Part shown: piece after piece, positions 37,037 to 48,820 of the stretch
How the letters are laid out: every line of letters begins with the position of its first letter
How positions within the stretch are numbered: the stretch's first letter is position 1
DNA from: Phycisphaera sp.
GTDB taxonomy: Bacteria > Planctomycetota > Phycisphaerae > Phycisphaerales > Phycisphaeraceae
Length of the DNA stretch: 64,000 bases
Reading direction: 5' to 3'
NCBI GenBank assembly: GCA_028285385.1
Contig: JANQPR010000071.1
Coordinates: 1-64,000, forward strand
Made by a program: the position numbers and the translations under genes
The notes under the pieces: generated by a model
What the model was told of the DNA's origin: nothing
The model's input: only the letters and a program-made list of their open reading frames with translations
Databases searched by the model: none

Positions 37037-38548
37037 TCATGTGAGTTTCTTCTTGACTGAAGTGCCGTTGGATGAGGTGCGGACTTCATAACCGAGCTGG
37101 ATCAACTGCTGCCGATGCCCGTCTGCTGCCGCATAATTACGCGCACTTCGCGCTACGTCGATCAACGCGCACAAGCTGGCAACGGTATCACTTTCGGTAT
37201 CCTCCGAGCGATTGTCGTTTGAGGCAAGCTCCCACACCCCTAAGACTTGATCTAAAGCCAGTAAGACACCGTAAGACTCCGCGGCATCTGAACCAGGAGA
37301 TGCAACCCAAGCATGCACGACCGCCATGGCCTCACTGACATTCAAGTCGTTTGCTAAGGCATGCAGGAATGCTCTCACGACTGGATGTTCGGTTTGATCA
37401 ATCTCCTCGGGGACTCCGCCAGATGCGTCGCGTAGTCGCTGGCCAAGTTCCGTCAGCCGCCGAACAGTACCCGCAGATTCAATCAGCCCCTTGGTCGTGA
37501 AGTTGCTTTGCGAACGGTAATGAGATTTGATGAGTTCCATACGGAGGACCGCCGGATGCACGGGCGACCCCGTAGCTTTGCCGGATAGAACATCGCGGAC
37601 AGTGAAGAAGTTGCCCTTACGTTTGGACATCTTCTCACCTTCCACCAACAAGAAGCGGGCATGCATCCAAAACCTGGAAAACAGATCGTTACCGGTAGCT
37701 CCGCAGGATTGAGCAATCTCACACTCGTGATGGGGAAAGATCAGATCCTCGCCGCCAGTATGAATGTCCAACACATCGGTTTCCAGGGCGCGCATCGACA
37801 TCGTTGAGCATTCGATGTGCCAGCCTGGGTATCCAGCCCCCCATGGCGAATCCCATCTCATGATATGTGTCGGATCAGGCTTCCAAAGCATGAAGTCTGC
37901 CGGGTGTCGCTTGAAGCTCTGGTTACTGATGTCGATACGCCCGCCGGCTCCAACCTGTAGAGCCTCGAGCGGGTTGCCGCTGAGTTGACCGTATTGGGAG
38001 AATGACTCAACGCTGTAATAGACTGCACCGTCACCACCCACGTACGCATGTCCGCGCTCGATGAGCGTAGAGATCATCTGCTGAATATCAGCAATGTAGT
38101 CCGTCGCCTTCGGTACTCGCTGCGGGAACTCACTGGCGACCTTTAGTCCCAGCTTGCGGCCATCATCAAGGAATGCTCGCGTGAAGTACTCCGCCACTTC
38201 GTACGGATCGTCTGGGTTGGTTACGGCCTCATCCTCAACTTTGCCAGCCTTTTTGTCGTGCTTGAGCCGGCGCGCCGCCGCCTGCATCTTATCTTCGCCG
38301 ACGCCGTCAGCTGCCGCGTCGTCAGTCATATGACCCACGTCCGTAATGTTCATCACATGCCAGACTTCGAAACCACTGGCCTCCAGAAACCTTCGTAACA
38401 AGTCTGCGAACAGAAAAGATCGAAAGTTACCAATGTGCGCAAAATCGTAGACAGTCGGCCCACAACTGTACATTTTGACCAAGCCAGAATTGAGCGGCTC
38501 AAATGGCGTCACTTGGTTCGTGAGTGTGTTGTAAAACCGAATGTTCAT
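37037..38548 (-). CDS. cysS: Cysteinyl-tRNA synthetase
   Basis: 503 residues from ATG 38548; a GTG at 38560 is also possible. Charges tRNA-Cys. Class I motifs: HIGN at 38-41 and [11 protein letters not shown] for KMSKS. All four zinc ligands of the E. coli enzyme type seem present: Cys29 in YSCGPTVYD, Cys in IECSTMSM, and His and Glu in [11 protein letters not shown], so this is not a zinc-free version. GC and codon use are plainly lower than in the housekeeping genes at 1-22,900. In other bacteria extra cysS copies are listed among genes linked to COG0523 metallochaperones and Zur (Haas et al. 2009). Whether a second copy exists elsewhere in this genome is unknown. Confidence 0.93.
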
Positions 38549-38949
38549 CTTGTCGCTCACACCCGTTCCACGGTCCGACTGGCGTAATAGGTGGCGCCAT
38601 CCTTCCCATTCCGACCCCAGCCCGAGGCTAAATCGCAGGCCGATACCAGCGGTCGATTTCAGTAACACATCGTAGTATCCAACAGTGGCCCGAACGCTTG
38701 GCACACACCTGTCAGTTTGTCTGCAGCCTGCTTAGCGATGCGGCAAACCGAGCCGGGGGCTGGGAGTCCAATGGCGAGTGCGGACGGCGCGTGTATTCGT
38801 GCCGGCGCCATCACTCGGTCGGCACCTTCGCTTCCTTCAGCGCGTGGCAGACCTCGCAGGACCAGGTCATGTTCTAGGTTCGCCCTCGGCCAGATTCTGT
38901 CAAAACTCTGGATCCTGATCTTGAGAAGAGATCCGAATAGAAGCTCGCA
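38549..38949. other. Gene-free stretch upstream of cysS
   Basis: About 400 bases. No reading frame with a credible start was found on either strand, and no palindrome like the Zur-type box at 48801 is visible. Confidence 0.5.
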
Positions 38950-39984
38950 TTACCGTAGTTTCTTGGCGCCTTCGATCACACGTTCCCAATCGAAGGCCGG
39001 GCCGGGGTCGACCTTCTGGGTCGTGATGTGGTGGTGCCCGATTAGCCCTTGGAACTCAGCCTGCTCCCCGGGCGTGAGTACATCCATCCGCACATCGCCT
39101 CCGACGTCGCGAGGGGCGTCGAGTTCGATCTTCGGCAAGACCTTGTTAAGAGTGGCGGTGAGTTTGATCAGTGCTTCGTATTGCGCCTCGGTCAGGTCAT
39201 ACTGCACCAATTCCTGGCCGTGGATCACGCCAACCACGGGCTCGTCGCGTGACGGGGAGTACTCGGTATTGGGGTCCAAGTGTCCCATCCGATCGGCGGG
39301 GATCTTGATCACCGTCTGCTGGTCCTCGGACTCCATGTACCACTGGTTCAGGAGCTCACGGTCGTCAGGCGAGACGGCCCCGATGTTGGCAATCTCGATA
39401 CCAACGGACCGGCTGTTCGAGGTGGTGGCGTGCCAAGCACGCTCCTTGACGTCCAGCGTCTGGTAGATCGTGCCGTCCACATCCAGCAAGAAGTGCACGC
39501 TCAAGCTTCGCATGTCCTGCAGCACCTCGAAGCAGTACTTGCTCGTGCCGCAGGCGTCGTAGTGAATCACGAACTGATCAACGATGTCCTGCAGCTGTTC
39601 GAGTTCCCAAGTGCCGCCGCGCACGGCCTCGATCTCTTCGGGAGTGAAGTCGGGGCGGCCGTTGTTGAAGCGATCAATCCGCATGCCGTAGCGGTTCGGC
39701 GAGCCCCATTCAGGCAGCTTGTCCTTAATCGCATCCCAGCTCGACTGATCAAAGTCCGCGAAACGCGCCTCCACGCGGTATGCGTCGTAGCCCTGCGCAT
39801 CCAGCCACGTCACGACCTTGGCCCCCGTGCGGTAGAACTGACCAGCCACGACGATCTCGTCGCCATACCGCACGGTCTCCTCGCCCGTCGGATTGGTCGT
39901 CTTGCATGCCGGGATCATCATGATCAAAAGTAACGCAAACAGGTTGACGAGTCGGAAACGTGGCGCGGCCGAGCACTCGAACAT
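38950..39984 (-). CDS. Lipoprotein N-acetylmuramoyl-L-alanine amidase (Amidase_2)
   Basis: 344 residues from ATG 39984 (TTTGGAGTTCACGCC upstream). The signal ends in a lipobox-like M-I-P-A-C near residue 27, followed by KTTNPTGEE, so the enzyme is probably lipid-anchored. Residues 130-320 form the amidase domain: FVIHYDACGTSKYCF with the first zinc His, ERAWHATTSNSRSVGIEIAN with the second, VIHGQELVQYD, and GHHHITTQKVDPGPAFDW with the third ligand region. Cleaves the lactyl-amide bond in peptidoglycan. Amidase paralogs recur in zinc-limitation gene sets; this one retains its ligands. Its promoter region is shared with the divergent gene at 40235. Confidence 0.87.
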   Translation of the reverse strand: MFECSAAPRFRLVNLFALLLIMMIPACKTTNPTGEETVRYGDEIVVAGQFYRTGAKVVTWLDAQGYDAYRVEARFADFDQSSWDAIKDKLPEWGSPNRYGMRIDRFNNGRPDFTPEEIEAVRGGTWELEQLQDIVDQFVIHYDACGTSKYCFEVLQDMRSLSVHFLLDVDGTIYQTLDVKERAWHATTSNSRSVGIEIANIGAVSPDDRELLNQWYMESEDQQTVIKIPADRMGHLDPNTEYSPSRDEPVVGVIHGQELVQYDLTEAQYEALIKLTATLNKVLPKIELDAPRDVGGDVRMDVLTPGEQAEFQGLIGHHHITTQKVDPGPAFDWERVIEGAKKLR

Positions 39985-40234
39985 GGCGTGAACTCCAAAC
40001 CGAGTAAAGTACTCCATAGATCGCAGTGTATACGCTCAAAGTTTCGGAGATTGCCGGCGTATTCGCCGCTACCCAAGAGATCGATTCCAGTCAGCGCGGG
40101 GGTCCCAGAGACGTTCGAGACTTCAGACAGGCCATTTTCGACCTCGCTCCAAAGACCCGATCTGGACAATGGGTGTGACGTCACCGCAATCTCAGAGTTG
40201 GCTCAAACCTCGGGACGAAAATCAGGAGATGGCA

Positions 40235-41753: not shown

Positions 41754-42176
41754 TTACGGGGCATGGCCTGGTGGGGAGAAAAGGTCAGCGTCTTTCGGAT
41801 CTGCGGCGGATGACTCAGGCATTGTCGAAGAGTGGTGCTCGACAATCATCCATCGCTTGCCGTGCCGGCGGTAGACAAAGGTGAACCTAGCTTGCACCCT
41901 AGTGCCTTCCTTAAAGGCAAAGGTGTATACACCGGAGTTGATCGCGGTCTCGCCAAAGGCCCTGATGTTCGCCTCGTCGATCTTTCCCATCGGTCCCTTT
42001 GCCAAGAAACCAACGAAATAATCTTCGATCTCTTCGTGGCTGTGCCGCACTTGGTCGGACATAGTCGGCAGCAAGACGCCACTGTCGTCATAAAGGGCCG
42101 TGACTTTCTTAGGGTCTCCGGTCTGCAGCGCCTGATTCCATTCGTCGAATTGTTCAGCGATATCGTTCTCGATCAT
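41754..42176 (-). CDS. SgcJ/EcaC-type protein resembling iota-class carbonic anhydrase
   Basis: 140 residues, no signal peptide, cystatin/NTF2-like alpha+beta fold (DEWNQALQTGDPKKVTALY; SGVYTFAFKEGTRVQARFTF; RRHGKRWMIVEHHSSTMPE). The HHSSxMPE block at 114-121 is the signature that links bacterial proteins labelled SgcJ/EcaC oxidoreductase to iota carbonic anhydrases, which hydrate CO2 and in studied examples can work without zinc. It is the last gene of the minus-strand run, 65 bp after the COG0523 gene. In a zinc-limitation operon, a metal-independent carbonic anhydrase would replace zinc-dependent ones. The enzyme assignment is an inference from the motif; other NTF2-like functions remain possible. 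Confidence 0.72.
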   Translation of the reverse strand: MIENDIAEQFDEWNQALQTGDPKKVTALYDDSGVLLPTMSDQVRHSHEEIEDYFVGFLAKGPMGKIDEANIRAFGETAINSGVYTFAFKEGTRVQARFTFVYRRHGKRWMIVEHHSSTMPESSAADPKDADLFSPPGHAP

Positions 42177-42241: not shown

Positions 42242-43297
42242 CTAGTTAACGTTCAGCGAGTCGGCGATCTCCTGCCAGTTCAGTGGCCGGTCGATTTCCA
42301 TGAGCATCTGCGCTTGGTCTACGACACCGGGTTTCGTGATCCATTCCATCCGGTTGTCGCGGCGGTGCGCGGAGTGGCGGAACGATATCTCGCCGTTGGC
42401 GATCTCGAGAGACTGCCAGCCGGCCGAGGTGTGAAAGACGCCCTTGAGGCGGAGCACTTCATTGCCGGCGATGCCCTGCTGACAGACGCGCATGAGGTTC
42501 ACGAGCAGCACTTCTTCCTCGAAGCACCGCTCGGCCTCGAGGATAAAGCCGCCGGGGTGGATCGAGGGATCGTGGTGGTGGTGATGATCGTCATCGTGAC
42601 CGTGGTGGTGGCTATGATCAACGTGGTCGTTGTGACGGTGGTCTGTCGGCGATGTGTCCAGCGTTTCGTTTGCTTCCGGCGAGGCGGCGGGAAGGTCGAA
42701 GAGTTCGGCGGGGAGTTGGCCGTGCGTTGTGGTAACGACGCAGAGCTTCGGCGGATCAAGTTGGTCGGCCCACAGTTTCGCGCGATCGATCTTGGACGTA
42801 TCGGTTTGGTCGCAGCGGTTGAAGACCAGAATGTCGGCAGCTTCGCAGAACATGTGGAAAAACGGCATCCGCGCAAACATCTCCTCGTCGAACTCTGGGG
42901 CGCCGAGCAGGACGATAGCGGGGTGCAGGAGGATGTTGAGTTCGTCCTGGAGACTACGGAGCAGGTCGATCACCTGCGCCGGCGAAGCCATGCCGCTGGG
43001 CTCGATGATCAGCCGATCCAGCGCCTGCTCGGAAATTAAACGCCGGATGCACCCGGGAAGTTCTGCAAGCATGGTGCAGCAGATGCACCCCCCGGGCACG
43101 TTCAGGACTTGGGTCCCCGGGGCTTCGGCCTGCAGCGTGGTGCTGTCGAGGCCGACGGGGCCGAAGTCATTTACAAGCACGCCGACTCGCTGGTGGGAGG
43201 CGTGCTCGCGGAGATAGCTGAGGATTGCCGATGTCTTGCCGACACCCAACGGGCCGGCGACGATGTGGCAGGGGATAGATGAGCTGTCTGGTGTCAA
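42242..43297 (-). CDS. COG0523 (CobW-like) GTPase with His-rich loop
   Basis: 351 residues. A G3E-family GTPase thought to be a metallochaperone. P-loop GPLGVGKT at 15-22 (Pro and Val differ from the usual GFLGAGKT), switch region NDFGPVGLD, metal motif CxCC at Cys71, Cys73, Cys74 (GGCICCTML), Walker-B-like IIEPSGMASP, and guanine motif FNRCDQTD (N-R-x-D). A loop at about 220-247 is almost all His and Asp (HNDHVDHSHHHGHDDDHHHHHD), a metal store or transfer site. The C-terminal CobW_C domain (VLRLKGVFHTSAGWQSLEIA) is intact. It precedes the iota-CA-like gene in the operon and is the second COG0523 protein here. Confidence 0.92.
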   Translation of the reverse strand: MTPDSSSIPCHIVAGPLGVGKTSAILSYLREHASHQRVGVLVNDFGPVGLDSTTLQAEAPGTQVLNVPGGCICCTMLAELPGCIRRLISEQALDRLIIEPSGMASPAQVIDLLRSLQDELNILLHPAIVLLGAPEFDEEMFARMPFFHMFCEAADILVFNRCDQTDTSKIDRAKLWADQLDPPKLCVVTTTHGQLPAELFDLPAASPEANETLDTSPTDHRHNDHVDHSHHHGHDDDHHHHHDPSIHPGGFILEAERCFEEEVLLVNLMRVCQQGIAGNEVLRLKGVFHTSAGWQSLEIANGEISFRHSAHRRDNRMEWITKPGVVDQAQMLMEIDRPLNWQEIADSLNVN

Positions 43298-43716: not shown

Positions 43717-44187
43717 TCAGAGCTGGGTCGGATTGGGAGCGTCGCCGTAGACCGCCTTGGGGTCGAATACCTTCTGTGTCTCCGTGAACTCCAGTTGCTG
43801 GCCTGCCTGGTTGCCAACGGGCACGGCCCGGTAGAAACAGGAGCGATAGCCCACATGGCAACTAGCCCCTCCCTGGACATCCACGCGCAGCCAGACGCAG
43901 TCCTGGTCGTCATCAATCCGCATCTCACGGACGCGCTGTACGAGGCCGCTCGTCGCGCCCTTGTGCCAAAGACACCTTCGGCTGCGACTCCAATACACCG
44001 CCTCGCCTAGCTGGATCGTCTGCGTGAGCGCCTCGATGTTCATGTAGGCATGCATGAGCACTTCGCCGGATGCGTAGTCCGTCGTGACCACGGGGATCAG
44101 CCCGTGCTCGTCGAACTTGGGCGCCAGCTCGACGCCTTCCTCTACCTGCTCGATGGTCTGTCTTCGCGAAAACGGTGAAACACTCAT
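43717..44187 (-). CDS. hisI: Phosphoribosyl-AMP cyclohydrolase, stand-alone, altered zinc ligand
   Basis: 156 residues from ATG 44187 (GAGGGAAG upstream). Third step of histidine synthesis: opens the purine ring of PR-AMP. Seen: [20 protein letters not shown], the [19 protein letters not shown] block, R-I-D-D-D-Q-D at 90-96, and [15 protein letters not shown]. The family normally has D-C-D-x-D with the Cys as one of three zinc ligands; here that position (93) is Asp, while Cys110 and Cys117 remain. A Cys at 97 is close by. It lies inside the Zur-headed gene run and is probably the zinc-sparing HisI2 type; a standard copy should exist elsewhere. Confidence 0.9.
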
Positions 44188-44245
44188 TGGCAAACTTCCC
44201 TCGTTATGTGTCACGGATTGATTGCCCTATCGCGGCGAGGCATGG

Positions 44246-44545
44246 TTATTCGTCTCCCGCACCGATGACGTTCGGCCCTTTGCCTGCTCGCTTTTCGTAG
44301 TAGCCGTCGCCCGCCTTGACGTATTTGGCCATGCCTTGCGCTTCGAGGTTTTTGTCGGACAGTTGCTGCCTGGCTCCGGCTTCAGACCACTGCCCCGCAA
44401 TGTGGGGCGGCTGAATCACCCGGCGTACCGGCTGGCCCGTGGTGGGATGAGTCGTCAGCGGCGCATCGGACATCTTCTGCATCACCTCGAACACCTGGCC
44501 GGCCTCGCCGTTGGCCAACACGACCTCGTACACATAGATGGGCAT
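44246..44545 (-). CDS. FmdB-like protein that has lost every zinc-ribbon cysteine
   Basis: 99 residues from ATG 44545, which overlaps the previous stop (TGATG). It keeps the FmdB/zinc-ribbon framework: MPIYVYE start, VFEVMQKMSDAPLT, then G-Q-P-V-R-R-V-I-Q-P-P. Where the family has two C-x-x-C pairs it has Y-E-V-V-L-A-N-G and H-P-T-T-G, and the whole protein contains no Cys. The C-terminal half (KNLEAQGMAKYVKAGDGYYEK) is a polar tail seen in FmdB relatives. By analogy to zinc-free ribosomal or DksA paralogs it may replace a zinc-ribbon protein when zinc is scarce. The partner and function of FmdB itself are not known. Confidence 0.78.
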   Translation of the reverse strand: MPIYVYEVVLANGEAGQVFEVMQKMSDAPLTTHPTTGQPVRRVIQPPHIAGQWSEAGARQQLSDKNLEAQGMAKYVKAGDGYYEKRAGKGPNVIGAGDE

Positions 44546-44904: not shown

Positions 44905-45134
44905 CTCAACTGTCTCCGGCGGAGCAAGGCTACGGCGATGTTGGCAATCAACCACGCCGGCGCGGCAGACAGCTGCAAGTAGTCTCCGATGAAACTGATC
45001 CGGTAGGCGAAAACGCTTGTGATCCAGCGAAGGCTGGCCGCGGTCTGGCCAAGCCACTCGATCGGCAGCATCTTGGCCAGCCAAGCCGGTATCGGATCCA
45101 TGGCAATGGAACGATCGACCTCATTGGTCAACAC
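44901..45134 (-). CDS. Small membrane protein
   Basis: About 77 residues. The start codon is ambiguous: GTG 45134 (or TTG 45131) lies just after GAGGAG, inside the last codons of the flavoprotein gene; an internal ATG also exists. Amphipathic N terminus (PIPAWLAKMLPIEWLGQT), then a hydrophobic segment (SAAPAWLIANIAVALL) and a basic end (RRRQLR). No family is recognised. The 4-bp overlap with the His/Cys-rich gene suggests the two proteins form a unit. Confidence 0.6.
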   Translation of the reverse strand: MLTNEVDRSIAMDPIPAWLAKMLPIEWLGQTAASLRWITSVFAYRISFIGDYLQLSAAPAWLIANIAVALLRRRQLR

Positions 45135-46270
45135 ACACACTCCTCTCCGCAGCAGGACAGGTCGTCGAGGTACATGCCCCAGTTACGGTAATGCTCTAAG
45201 CGTTCAGCAGGCAGGCCGAGGGACGTGGCGATCGCTTTGGCAACTACGGCGAAACGCTGCCGGTACTTGTAGATAAAACAGAACACATGATCGCCATGCC
45301 GAACGGCGGGCCCACACAGAAACAAGCCCGGTACCAGCGTCGACTCGTCATTGTCGTTCAACAGCGGAAACCCATCCTGGCGTCTTTCGAACAAGTCTGC
45401 GACCAACCTGTGGCTGCCTTCAAACCCGCCCGCCAAGAGTGGCGGGATGTCGGTGTGAAACCAGCGGCCGTCGGACGTGGTGACTTCGTACCTGTCATCA
45501 ATATGCATGACCGAGGCTATCAGCGCGTTGGAGAACATCTCCACGTATCGTTCGAACCACTCCTCTTTCATGCGCTCGAGTGAATACGTTGATAACGCGG
45601 CGCTGGGGTCGGAACTCTCTTCCTGCCACGGACACCCTCTATCAAACAGGCGGACTCGTCTGTCTTGATACGCAAGGTGATAAGCCGCGTCGACACCGCT
45701 CTCGCAACCGCCAATGATGACGAACTCGTCTCCTTCGAGCTGTTGATAGCTGCCGATCGTCGCGGTGTGCCGACAGAGCTCGCTGCCGACGAAGCCGTTG
45801 AGGCGGGGGTACTGAAATTCGCCACCCGCCCAGATCACGTGCTTGGCACGCAGTGTTTCTTCGGCGGTGTCGATCAGGAAGTCTTCCCCGTGTTTCGTGA
45901 TGCGTAGGACGCTGGCCCTCTCACGGATAGGCAGATTAAAGAACGCCGCGACGCCCCGCAGGTGTGCCGCGTAGTCTCTACCTGTGGGGTGCTCGACCTT
46001 GAGGCTGAAAGCGGGTGAAACACCGATCGCAATCGAGTTCAGATCGAGCATCCCGATCGAGTTGGTTGCGAAAGACGGGGTGATAAACCGAGTCTCCTTC
46101 GGCCAAGCGGCAAACGATGACCCGACCGTGCGCCGTTCTAGCACGACGGAGTTTTCGACGCCCGCGTCTTTGAGTGCGATCGCCACCCCCACGCCCGCGG
46201 CGCCACCTCCGACGACGACGGCATCGAAAGACTCCGCAGGTCCTGATGTCGTCGCCAGACGTTTGATCAT
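45128..46270 (-). CDS. FAD/NAD(P)-dependent oxidoreductase with Cys-rich tail
   Basis: 380 residues from ATG 46270. FAD-binding GxGxxG is in VVVGGGAAGVG (about 19-29); a second dinucleotide site is in VIIGGCESGVDAAYH; an IWAGGEFQYPRLNGF block and the final LFLCGPAVRHGDHVFCFIYK are like flavin monooxygenases/thioredoxin-reductase-like proteins of the COG2072 type. The C terminus is LDDLSCCGEECVC, with five Cys in nine residues, probably a metal- or redox-active tail. Such flavoproteins occur beside COG0523 GTPases in other bacteria. Role unknown; metal reduction or Cys-tail redox transfer are possibilities. The small membrane gene starts inside its 3' end. Confidence 0.8.
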   Translation of the reverse strand: MIKRLATTSGPAESFDAVVVGGGAAGVGVAIALKDAGVENSVVLERRTVGSSFAAWPKETRFITPSFATNSIGMLDLNSIAIGVSPAFSLKVEHPTGRDYAAHLRGVAAFFNLPIRERASVLRITKHGEDFLIDTAEETLRAKHVIWAGGEFQYPRLNGFVGSELCRHTATIGSYQQLEGDEFVIIGGCESGVDAAYHLAYQDRRVRLFDRGCPWQEESSDPSAALSTYSLERMKEEWFERYVEMFSNALIASVMHIDDRYEVTTSDGRWFHTDIPPLLAGGFEGSHRLVADLFERRQDGFPLLNDNDESTLVPGLFLCGPAVRHGDHVFCFIYKYRQRFAVVAKAIATSLGLPAERLEHYRNWGMYLDDLSCCGEECVC

Positions 46271-46298
46271 GGATCTGATGCGTTCCACGCGTTTGCCA

Positions 46299-46793
46299 CT
46301 AGTGCCTGTGGTCTTCAACCCATACGTGCTCGATGCCGTGGATAGCGTCACGCAGTCTGGCCGCGGCGGCGACATCGGTCGTCTGTTTGGACTTCATCGC
46401 CGCGACCAACAGCTCGTGATGTAGCGCGAGGGTATTGAGATAGGTCTCATACCCTTCCGCCCCTTTCGCGACGGGCTTGAGCTTCTGTGTGAGGAAGTAC
46501 TCGCTCGTCACGGCGATCACACGTGACGCGTGTTCTTCTTTGGCATGCGTCCATCGCACGAACTGCTGCTGGCTCTGCGCGTCGTCCTCGCCCGCCAACT
46601 CGTTCATCCGCTTCATGGCCTTGTCGATAGTGGTCGCATCTTCGTAGAGGGCCTTGATCCGGGCGTCCTCATCGAAGATGCCGCAAGGCACCTGGCAGTG
46701 CGCCTCGGTGATGGAGGCCGACTCATTGAGCAGGGCGACGCCGGCGGCGAGGGCGGAGAGAACCAGTGCGATGGTGGCGAGTGGCTTCAGCAT
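46299..46793 (-). CDS. sodN: Nickel superoxide dismutase (SodN)
   Basis: 164 residues from ATG 46793 (CGGAGCAAGC upstream). The nickel hook His32-Cys33-x-x-Pro-Cys37-Gly-x-x-Asp (HCQVPCGIFDED) is intact. The rest is the expected four-helix bundle (LYEDATTIDKAMKRMNEL, FVRWTHAKEEHASRVIAV, YETYLNTLALHHELLVAAMK). In known NiSODs a leader is cut so that His becomes residue 1. Here the leader is a hydrophobic signal-like segment (residues 5-22), implying export. NiSOD needs neither copper nor zinc, so it can replace Cu,Zn-SOD under zinc limitation. It lies between the ZigA-type GTPase and the flavoprotein. Confidence 0.9.
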   Translation of the reverse strand: MLKPLATIALVLSALAAGVALLNESASITEAHCQVPCGIFDEDARIKALYEDATTIDKAMKRMNELAGEDDAQSQQQFVRWTHAKEEHASRVIAVTSEYFLTQKLKPVAKGAEGYETYLNTLALHHELLVAAMKSKQTTDVAAAARLRDAIHGIEHVWVEDHRH

Positions 46794-46847
46794 GCTTGCT
46801 CCGTTTGGTTTGGTTTGGATTGCGGTGCTGCATAAAGGCATCGCCGA

Positions 46848-48080
46848 CTAACCGGCGTGCACTTCTTCGGGCATGTGCGGATCCCAACTCGGGATCGGAT
46901 CTTCGAACCGAGACCAGTGCTCGGGGCCGGCCGCCATCTCTTCATCCGTGATCAGTGCTGCGTCCAGGCCTGCCTCGATCTTCTTACGGTCCATCTCGAC
47001 ACCGATGAACACGATCTCCTGTCGACAGTCGCCGACTTCTTCATCCCAGAGTTCATCGATCCGCTTTCGGGTATCCGGATCATCTGGCCAGCGATCCTTG
47101 CCCACCGCCGCAAACCAATAACCCGCCCGATCCATCTGTAGCGACGAGCCGGCCTGAGACCACACCCCGCAGTACTGGGGCCGGGAGGCGATCCAGAGGT
47201 AACCCTTGGAACGGATCACGCCGTTCAAGCTGGATTCGGTCGCGTCTATCAATCGCTGGGGATGAAACGGTCGGCGACGGCGGTACACGAAGCTGCCGAT
47301 GCCATACTCCTCGGTCTCCGGGATGTGCTCGCCGTTGAGTTCCTTAATCCAGCCGGGCATCAACGACGCTTCATCTTCGTCGTAGAGACCCGTACCGACG
47401 ACCTGATTCAGGTCGATCCGGCCGCGAGACGTTCGCACGAGCCTAGCGTCCGGATTCATATGATGGAGGATGCCCTCCAGTCGTTCGATCTCTTCGGCCT
47501 TGACCAGGTCGCACTTGTTGATGACGATCACGTTGGCGAACTCGATCTGGTCTGTCAGCAAATCGACGATGGTGCGTTCGTCCTCTTCGCTCACGCCCAG
47601 ATCGCGATCGCGCAGACCCTGGTGACTGTCAAAGTCGCGGAGGAAGTTGGCGGCATCCACCACGGTGACCATCGTGTCGATGCTGGCGGTGTCGCTGAGT
47701 GATTGACCGTTTTCGTCGCGGAACGAGAACGTCGCCGCTACGGGCATGGGCTCGGCGATCCCGGTCGCTTCGATGAGCAGGTGGTCAAACCGGCCCTCCC
47801 TTGCCAGCCGATTGACTTCGATCATCAGGTCTTCCCGAAGCGTGCAGCAGATGCAGCCGTTGGTCATCTCGACCATCTTCTCTTCGGTGCGAGAGAGCTT
47901 CGCGCCGCCATCACGGACCAGTGAGGCGTCGATGTTGACTTCAGACATGTCATTGACGATGACCGCCACGCGCAATCCCTCGCGGTTGTTCAGGATGTGA
48001 TTGAGCACTGTGGTCTTTCCGGCTCCGAGGAAGCCGGAAAGGACGGTAACTGGCAGGCGTTTCGTGTTGGCGGTTGACAT
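46848..48080 (-). CDS. ZigA-type COG0523 GTPase (zinc metallochaperone)
   Basis: 410 residues from ATG 48080 (AGGGAACACTCA upstream). P-loop GFLGAGKT at 16-23, E-V-N-I-D switch region, metal motif at Cys76, Cys78, Cys79 ([11 protein letters not shown]), IEATGIAEP, and guanine motif VINKCDLV (N-K-x-D). The C-terminal domain has [11 protein letters not shown] and an S-K-G-Y-L-W-I-A block like ZigA/YciC proteins, unlike the shorter CobW protein at 42242. Expected role: GTP-dependent delivery of zinc to client enzymes when zinc is low. Second structural gene after the regulator, which supports Zur control. Confidence 0.93.
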
Positions 48081-48113: not shown

Positions 48114-48356
48114 TCAGTCTCCGCACCCGTGCGTGCCGCAGCATCGCGCCCCAAACCTCGACAGCTGATCGGGCTTACGAGCCATGACGATCCCTGCGCC
48201 GATTTGCCTCTGTACCGGTGATTCACGCGGTGTCCGACCCGCGTCAATCGAGGCACGGTCACACAGTTCGCCCCACGTAGTGATCCGCTCGCTCATGGCG
48301 TGATAGACGGCAACCTCGCGCCCGTTCTCTGGGCAGTGGTAGTCATAGGTCGGCAT
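48114..48356 (-). CDS. Second FmdB-like protein, cysteine-poor
   Basis: 80 residues from ATG 48356, two bases after the regulator's stop. It starts MPTYDYHCPENGREVAVYHAMSE, the FmdB pattern, but has one Cys (HCPENG) instead of a C-x-x-C pair. The following W-G-E-L-C-D-R-A-S-I-D region belongs to a known branch of FmdB-like proteins. The C terminus RCCGTHGCGD is Cys-rich, as in that branch. A canonical zinc ribbon is not formed by the N-terminal domain. Function unknown; it may bind metal with its tail. Confidence 0.72.
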   Translation of the reverse strand: MPTYDYHCPENGREVAVYHAMSERITTWGELCDRASIDAGRTPRESPVQRQIGAGIVMARKPDQLSRFGARCCGTHGCGD

Positions 48357-48358
48357 GG

Positions 48359-48751
48359 TCAACCGGCCGTCCGCTCTGACGTGACGCACTCCCCACATCG
48401 TCCAAAGAGCGTCAGCTCGTGCTCTTGGACCTCAAAGCCGGGCGGCACCATATTCGCGATGCCACCTGCGCAACCGTGTACGTCAAAGGCTTCCCCACAC
48501 TCACGGCAGAGGAAATGGTGATGATGCCCCCGGTCGGTCGGCTCGTAGCGCACATCATTGCGGCCCAGTCCCACGGCCCGAACTTCACCGGACTCCCGCA
48601 GGTGTTTGAGATGCCGATAGACCGTCGCGATGCCCAGCGTCGGCACCATGCGGGACGCGAGATTGAGAATCTCTCGGGGGTGCAGGGGACCCGGAGCGCT
48701 GCGGATGACCTCCCCTATGGCACTGCGCTGACAGGTGACTCTGGTGCTCAC
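48359..48751 (-). CDS. zur: Fur-family regulator, probably Zur
   Basis: 130 residues from GTG 48751, chosen because AAAGGAGA lies seven bases before it; the open frame upstream contains the operator. Winged helix at 10-70 with recognition helix ATVYRHLKHL. Regulatory metal residues in HHHHF (76-79), Cys82 and Cys85 (CRECG), His92, His111, and Cys119/Cys122 (CGEC), forming the Cys4 structural zinc and the sensory site. The Zur rather than Fur assignment rests on the content of the operon (two COG0523 genes and replacement enzymes), since the families are not separable by eye. A palindrome 50-70 bases upstream suggests autoregulation. Confidence 0.85.
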   Translation of the reverse strand: MSTRVTCQRSAIGEVIRSAPGPLHPREILNLASRMVPTLGIATVYRHLKHLRESGEVRAVGLGRNDVRYEPTDRGHHHHFLCRECGEAFDVHGCAGGIANMVPPGFEVQEHELTLFGRCGECVTSERTAG

Positions 48752-48800: not shown

Positions 48801-48820
48801 AATGATACTTGATTATCATT
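48801..48820. promoter_or_regulatory. Fur/Zur-type operator upstream of the regulator gene
   Basis: AATGATA, six bases, TATCATT: a perfect 7-6-7 inverted repeat in an AT-rich patch, resembling TGATAAT..ATTATCA boxes of Fur/Zur proteins. It lies 50-70 bases before the start of the regulator gene, where it would cover the promoter of the whole gene run. Confidence 0.65.

Follow-up and report, generated by a model that had tools for sequence, protein, structure and literature searches.

Carbonic anhydrase (CA) is the textbook zinc enzyme, and cells that run short of zinc need another source of bicarbonate. One alternative enzyme, ytiB of Bacillus, is a beta-class CA. In fact, CAs controlled by the zinc regulator Zur are known: a review names can (a gamma-CA) for Pseudomonas and ytiB for Bacillus (PMC6103462), and Zur regulons with paralogues of HisI, cysteinyl-tRNA synthetase, amidase and gamma-CA have been described (Haas et al. 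2009, PMC2770081). In the gamma-CA systems of Pseudomonas and Cupriavidus, as in the ytiB system of Bacillus subtilis, an alternative CA is part of a Zur regulon that also includes COG0523, HisI2 and further paralogues. A similar arrangement is found in Phycisphaera sp., in a 64,000-nucleotide stretch of contig JANQPR010000071.1 (hereafter the window), but while those systems use other, metal-using classes, the part is taken here by the iota class. We found no iota-class CA linked to Zur in the literature searched; thus Zur-controlled alternative CAs are known, and it is the iota class in that role that is new among this literature. From the sequence and a structural model, we consider it probable that the window encodes a cytoplasmic iota-CA of the COG4875 branch which, with its gene at the end of an operon repressed by Zur, hydrates CO2 without zinc under zinc shortage.

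The gene in question is a single copy in its genome:

41754..42176, minus strand: iota-class CA homologue (COG4875/CaMKII_AD type), 140 amino acids, without signal peptide; T38, Y53, H114 and S116 predicted to be catalytic

That its product belongs to the iota-class CAs, in the COG4875 branch, is well supported by sequence comparison and modelling. The open reading frame is not a chance one, since it matches Pfam and PDB 3h51 and has 39 relatives in other genomes. Pfam CaMKII_AD is its best family match (2.1e-22), with DUF4440 and SnoaL-type models ranking behind, and NCBIfam TIGR02246 SgcJ/EcaC, the annotation label of most bacterial iota-CAs (PMC8425729), matches as well. Among solved structures, 3h51 (1.7e-33) and the iota-CA 7c5x (1.6e-8; 2.9e-12 by profile) match its sequence best. 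The HHSSTMPE block, from which the initial annotation had recognized an iota-CA, is indeed present at residues 114-121, and the family it had named holds up with these matches and with the active site. Across 41 aligned sequences, T38, Y53, H114, S116, F54 and F57 are invariant, as is the HHSS motif (residues 114-117) near the C-terminus. The catalytic set of the diatom iota-CA is Thr62, Tyr77, His139 and Ser141, with Phe78 and Phe81 (PMC8395977), and the spacings within the pairs T38/Y53 (15) and H114/S116 (2) equal those of the diatom enzyme.

A comparison of a predicted structure with solved ones, of the kind that the initial annotation had proposed for iota-CAs, points the same way. The AlphaFold2 model (41-row alignment) has a mean predicted local distance difference test (pLDDT) score of 83 and exceeds 90 through most of its core, and its top Foldseek match is 3h51. 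In VIA-align, the model fits 3h51 with Z 22.1 and a root-mean-square deviation of 1.0 Å over 122 residues; the next fold is an unrelated NTF2-like protein (Z 18.4). 3h51 itself is reported to resemble the metal-free enzymes in fold (DALI 15.2) and in most residues of the cavity (PMC8132391).

How does the window protein compare with the described members of the class? With the COG4875 iota-CAs (LCIP63 of Thalassiosira pseudonana, BteCA-iota of Burkholderia territorii and 3h51 of Xanthomonas) it has the domain and HHSS in common, and it is single-domain, as are the bacterial ones. Unlike them, it carries neither a signal peptide nor an N-terminal extension, the bacterial members being described as exported, and its gene lies within a zinc-shortage operon. 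With the metal-free COG4337 iota-CAs (all2909 of Anabaena, Bn86287 of Bigelowiella; PDB 7c5v-7c5y), fold class, HHSS and catalytic residues are common; the sequences are distant, as the 7c5x match already indicates, and the Thr-to-Tyr loop is shorter in the window protein (15 residues against 17-18).

The metal question is where the branch matters. Metal-free activity has been demonstrated for COG4337-branch iota-CAs (PMC8132391). In the COG4875 branch, manganese has been reported for the diatom enzyme and zinc for that of Burkholderia territorii, and yet the diatom enzyme is also active without metal and is inhibited by zinc (PMC8425729, PMC8395977). Because these COG4875 reports conflict and the metal-free proof concerns the COG4337 branch, we regard metal-independence of the window protein as plausible rather than established. 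Thus, the initial claim that iota-CAs work without zinc stands for COG4337 enzymes and does not carry over as such to this COG4875 protein. It could be, then, that a Zur-controlled iota-CA works with another metal (manganese, iron, cobalt or scavenged zinc) and spares zinc by swapping metals, an idea already put forward for the gamma-CA under Zur. The diatom enzyme, reported as manganese-dependent, and the Burkholderia enzyme, reported as zinc-associated, would fit this possibility, as would a metal site that has been suggested for the HHSS dimer interface. However, the window protein shares its catalytic residues with the metal-free COG4337 enzymes, the 41 aligned sequences show no conserved 3-His or Cys set apart from the two neighbouring histidines of HHSS, and the diatom enzyme behaves without metal and with zinc as just described. 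We therefore judge a metal swap unlikely, while giving it more weight than any other alternative.

Quite unlikely, in our view, is that this iota-CA-family, NTF2-like protein serves zinc starvation by something other than CO2 hydration, as a small-molecule binder or as an enzyme for another substrate. The NTF2-like fold hosts many functions, many unrelated NTF2-like structures reach Z 16-18 with the model, and CA activity of 3h51, the closest solved protein, was not confirmed (PMC8132391). Against such a role, the clade keeps all four catalytically required residues without exception, the 3h51 match stands clear of the other NTF2-like folds, and CAs are known Zur targets.

What suggests zinc control of this gene is the cluster that it ends. 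From ~48750 down to 41754, the genes follow one another on the minus strand with short gaps, every recognised gene on the same strand, and the gene downstream of the iota-CA is on the plus strand. The further claim of a terminal position in a Zur-type operon is thereby borne out as to layout, with a Fur-family gene at the head and the iota-CA at the end:

48801..48820, no strand: Zur-type operator AATGATACTTGATTATCATT, a 20-bp palindrome at the operon head, ~50 bp before the regulator start
48359..48751, minus strand: Fur-family regulator, operon head; start placed at a GTG near 48751, Zur role suggested by its regulon
48114..48398, minus strand: FmdB-like small protein
46848..48080, minus strand: ZigA, zinc metallochaperone GTPase (629 bits, curated cut-off 600)
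46299..46841, minus strand: nickel superoxide dismutase (Ni-SOD)-like protein, nickel-hook HCQVPCG after a signal-like N-terminus
45128..46375, minus strand: flavin adenine dinucleotide-dependent oxidoreductase, YpdA-like (below cut-off), with a paralogue in the znuA cluster of contig C78
44246..44542, minus strand: FmdB-type zinc-ribbon paralogue, all cysteines lost
43717..44214, minus strand: HisI2, second phosphoribosyl-AMP cyclohydrolase; the other HisI copy is on contig C35
43389..43598, minus strand: small open reading frame, ~70 amino acids, without family assignment, between HisI2 and the COG0523 gene
42242..43297, minus strand: second COG0523/CobW-type GTPase with a His-rich stretch, directly upstream of the iota-CA after a 65-bp gap

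The operator is the only such site in the window. In a whole-genome pattern search (up to 3 mismatches), the forward pattern matched 10 times and the reversed control twice. Three of the forward matches share a 6-kb stretch of contig C78, where they stand at the beginning of a znuA-type gene, with its ATPase and permease genes next in line, and beside a second ZigA and the flavoprotein paralogue. We read the operator as a Zur box because it recurs at znuA and at the second ZigA cluster of the same genome. In keeping with the Zur-type control initially claimed, the iota-CA operon is very probably Zur-controlled, presumably by repression, as far as its sequence can tell. A perfect copy of the box, AATGATAATCCCTTATCATT, also stands elsewhere in this genome (contig C120:82841-82860; L020:18841-18860), ~86 bp before a gene for a PEP-CTERM-like secreted protein.

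Could the regulator instead be another Fur-family sensor, of manganese, iron or peroxide, so that the operon answers another signal? PerR and Fur models score better than Zur on it, all below cut-off, and the C78 transporter also resembles manganese systems. But this box stands at ZigA-type zinc GTPases in two places, zinc shortage is marked by HisI2, by the COG0523 pair and by the Cys-less FmdB, and relatives in other phyla adjoin Zur-like regulators, ZrgA and FolE2; we find this explanation decidedly improbable.

The zinc context of the iota-CA is not confined to this genome and recurs in several other bacterial phyla. One scan of 84,980 species genomes gave the 39 relatives, 56-76% identical and spread over at least seven phyla (the groups are Thermodesulfobacteriota, Pseudomonadota, SAR324, Planctomycetota, Verrucomicrobiota, Acidobacteriota, Gemmatimonadota and Binatota). 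None of the 39 has a signal peptide: their frames begin at the domain or a few residues before it, or the extension is not signal-like. Zinc-starvation genes (Zur, Znu, ZrgA, ZigA, HisI2, DUF1826, FolE2 or threonyl-tRNA synthetase) surround or accompany the iota-CA in 10 of them, some neighbour genes being named from clustering or sequence reading:

L028: ZnuC, ZnuB, a Zur-like regulator, ZrgA
L031: DUF1826, a Zur-like regulator, HisI2, FolE2, threonyl-tRNA synthetase, ZigA, ZnuA
L032, L043, L044, L047, L051, L053, L054, L062: the other zinc-context loci

Counting strong ZigA matches only, with the carriers' whole genomes as base, ZigA is seen at 6 loci where 0.08 are expected (Poisson 4e-10); with the Oceanicoccus pair taken once, the loci are 5 (Poisson 3e-8). 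A Zur-like palindrome before the iota-CA is clear in Veronia (L059) and possible in L040 and L031. The one in Veronia is a perfect 24-bp palindrome, TTTGTGATGTTATAACATCACAAA, and resembles the Zur-type boxes before ZigA in two other genomes; these gamma-type boxes stand before ZigA in the two carriers and not before their iota-CA.

Several observations nevertheless weigh against a zinc-free CA under Zur. The operator lies ~6.6 kb upstream of the iota-CA rather than directly in front of it, no gene-proximal Zur box precedes the gene in the window, and a promoter could be concealed in either of two gaps (~92 and ~116 bp) toward the 3' end of the cluster. The metal-free iota-CAs 7c5v-7c5y are not among the 50 structural matches listed for the model, and the metal reports for COG4875 enzymes conflict. 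Among the relatives, 29 of 39 have no zinc neighbour in the DNA examined, and for most of them no Zur box could be recognised ahead of the iota-CA; thus, zinc control is not universal in the signal-less clade. In the other carriers examined from the window's own class, the iota-CA genes are stand-alone. That the iota-CA is a mere neighbour by chance, transcribed alone and unrelated to zinc, would suit these stand-alone genes and the many relatives outside a zinc context, yet is very improbable given the excess of ZigA at 6 of 39 loci, the shared strand, the short gap behind the COG0523 gene and the failure to find any terminator-like site in it.

The other genes of the operon, and those just beyond it, deserve a few words. 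The Ni-SOD-like protein matches the Sod_Ni Pfam family (1.7e-30), with the sodN model below cut-off. Were it an exported Ni-SOD controlled by zinc, it would stand in for Cu,Zn-SOD and so save zinc, much as the iota-CA would. YpdA-like flavoproteins, all below the model cut-off, recur in zinc-starvation clusters of several phyla, beside ZigA or the iota-CA (L022, L031, L032 and L061). A gene for a small membrane protein sits between the flavoprotein and the Cys-less FmdB-type protein (44246-44542), which recalls the Cys-less ribosomal paralogues of Zur regulons. The HisI2 of a Gemmatimonadota metagenome-assembled genome (L051:3844-4311) is 83% identical to that of the window, which points to zinc-starvation genes having moved recently from one phylum to another. 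Just beyond the operon, on the minus strand, are a cysteinyl-tRNA synthetase (37037-38704) and an AmpD-like amidase (38950-40017), families that provide zinc-regulon paralogues elsewhere; no Zur-type box was found near either gene.

Exported iota-CAs offer a useful contrast. Plasmid relatives number 376 records, all below 60% identity, and we examined six of them at 43-56%. Five have a signal peptide and two conserved cysteines, and the sixth, from Klebsiella, looks N-terminally truncated; the window protein lacks the two cysteines, and no zinc-starvation neighbours were found beside the six. In the tree, the plasmid relatives cluster together next to 3h51 and are separate from the signal-less proteins. 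By signal peptides, neighbours and tree grouping, the exported iota-CAs thus differ from the signal-less clade in location and partly in regulation. The truncated Klebsiella pneumoniae homologue (L066:7980-8354) adjoins qnrB, with near-identical copies on many other enterobacterial plasmids, and may be carried along with the resistance gene. A phage origin of the iota-CA was considered and dropped, there being no phage match.

To explain how a zinc-free CA under Zur could serve the cell, we propose the following. When zinc is plentiful, Zur, the Fur-family regulator from the operon head, would sit on the 48801-48820 palindrome and block transcription. Zinc shortage would lead to expression of the operon in full, yielding zinc chaperone GTPases, paralogues and the CA. 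HisI2, the Cys-less FmdB and the Ni-SOD-like protein could replace or back up zinc enzymes, and CO2 would be hydrated in the Thr-Tyr-Ser-His pocket (T38, Y53, S116, H114) with no need for zinc. We found no alpha- or beta-CA in this genome; the only other CA found is a gamma-class homologue with its metal-binding histidines present, and the supply of bicarbonate might thus be kept up should this homologue lose its metal.

More tentatively, we envision that the signal-less, cytoplasmic COG4875 clade, passed among at least seven phyla, is often a Zur-switched, metal-free CA, that is, a zinc-free bypass and not a metal swap; this may be so, though we would not yet lean on it. If the clade is metal-free, then a zinc-free CA would be found exactly where theory predicts one. 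Its members, being small, soluble and cytoplasmic, are well suited to deciding the metal dependence of COG4875 enzymes, and the proposal, if true, would give a physiological reason for the metal-independence of COG4875 iota-CAs.
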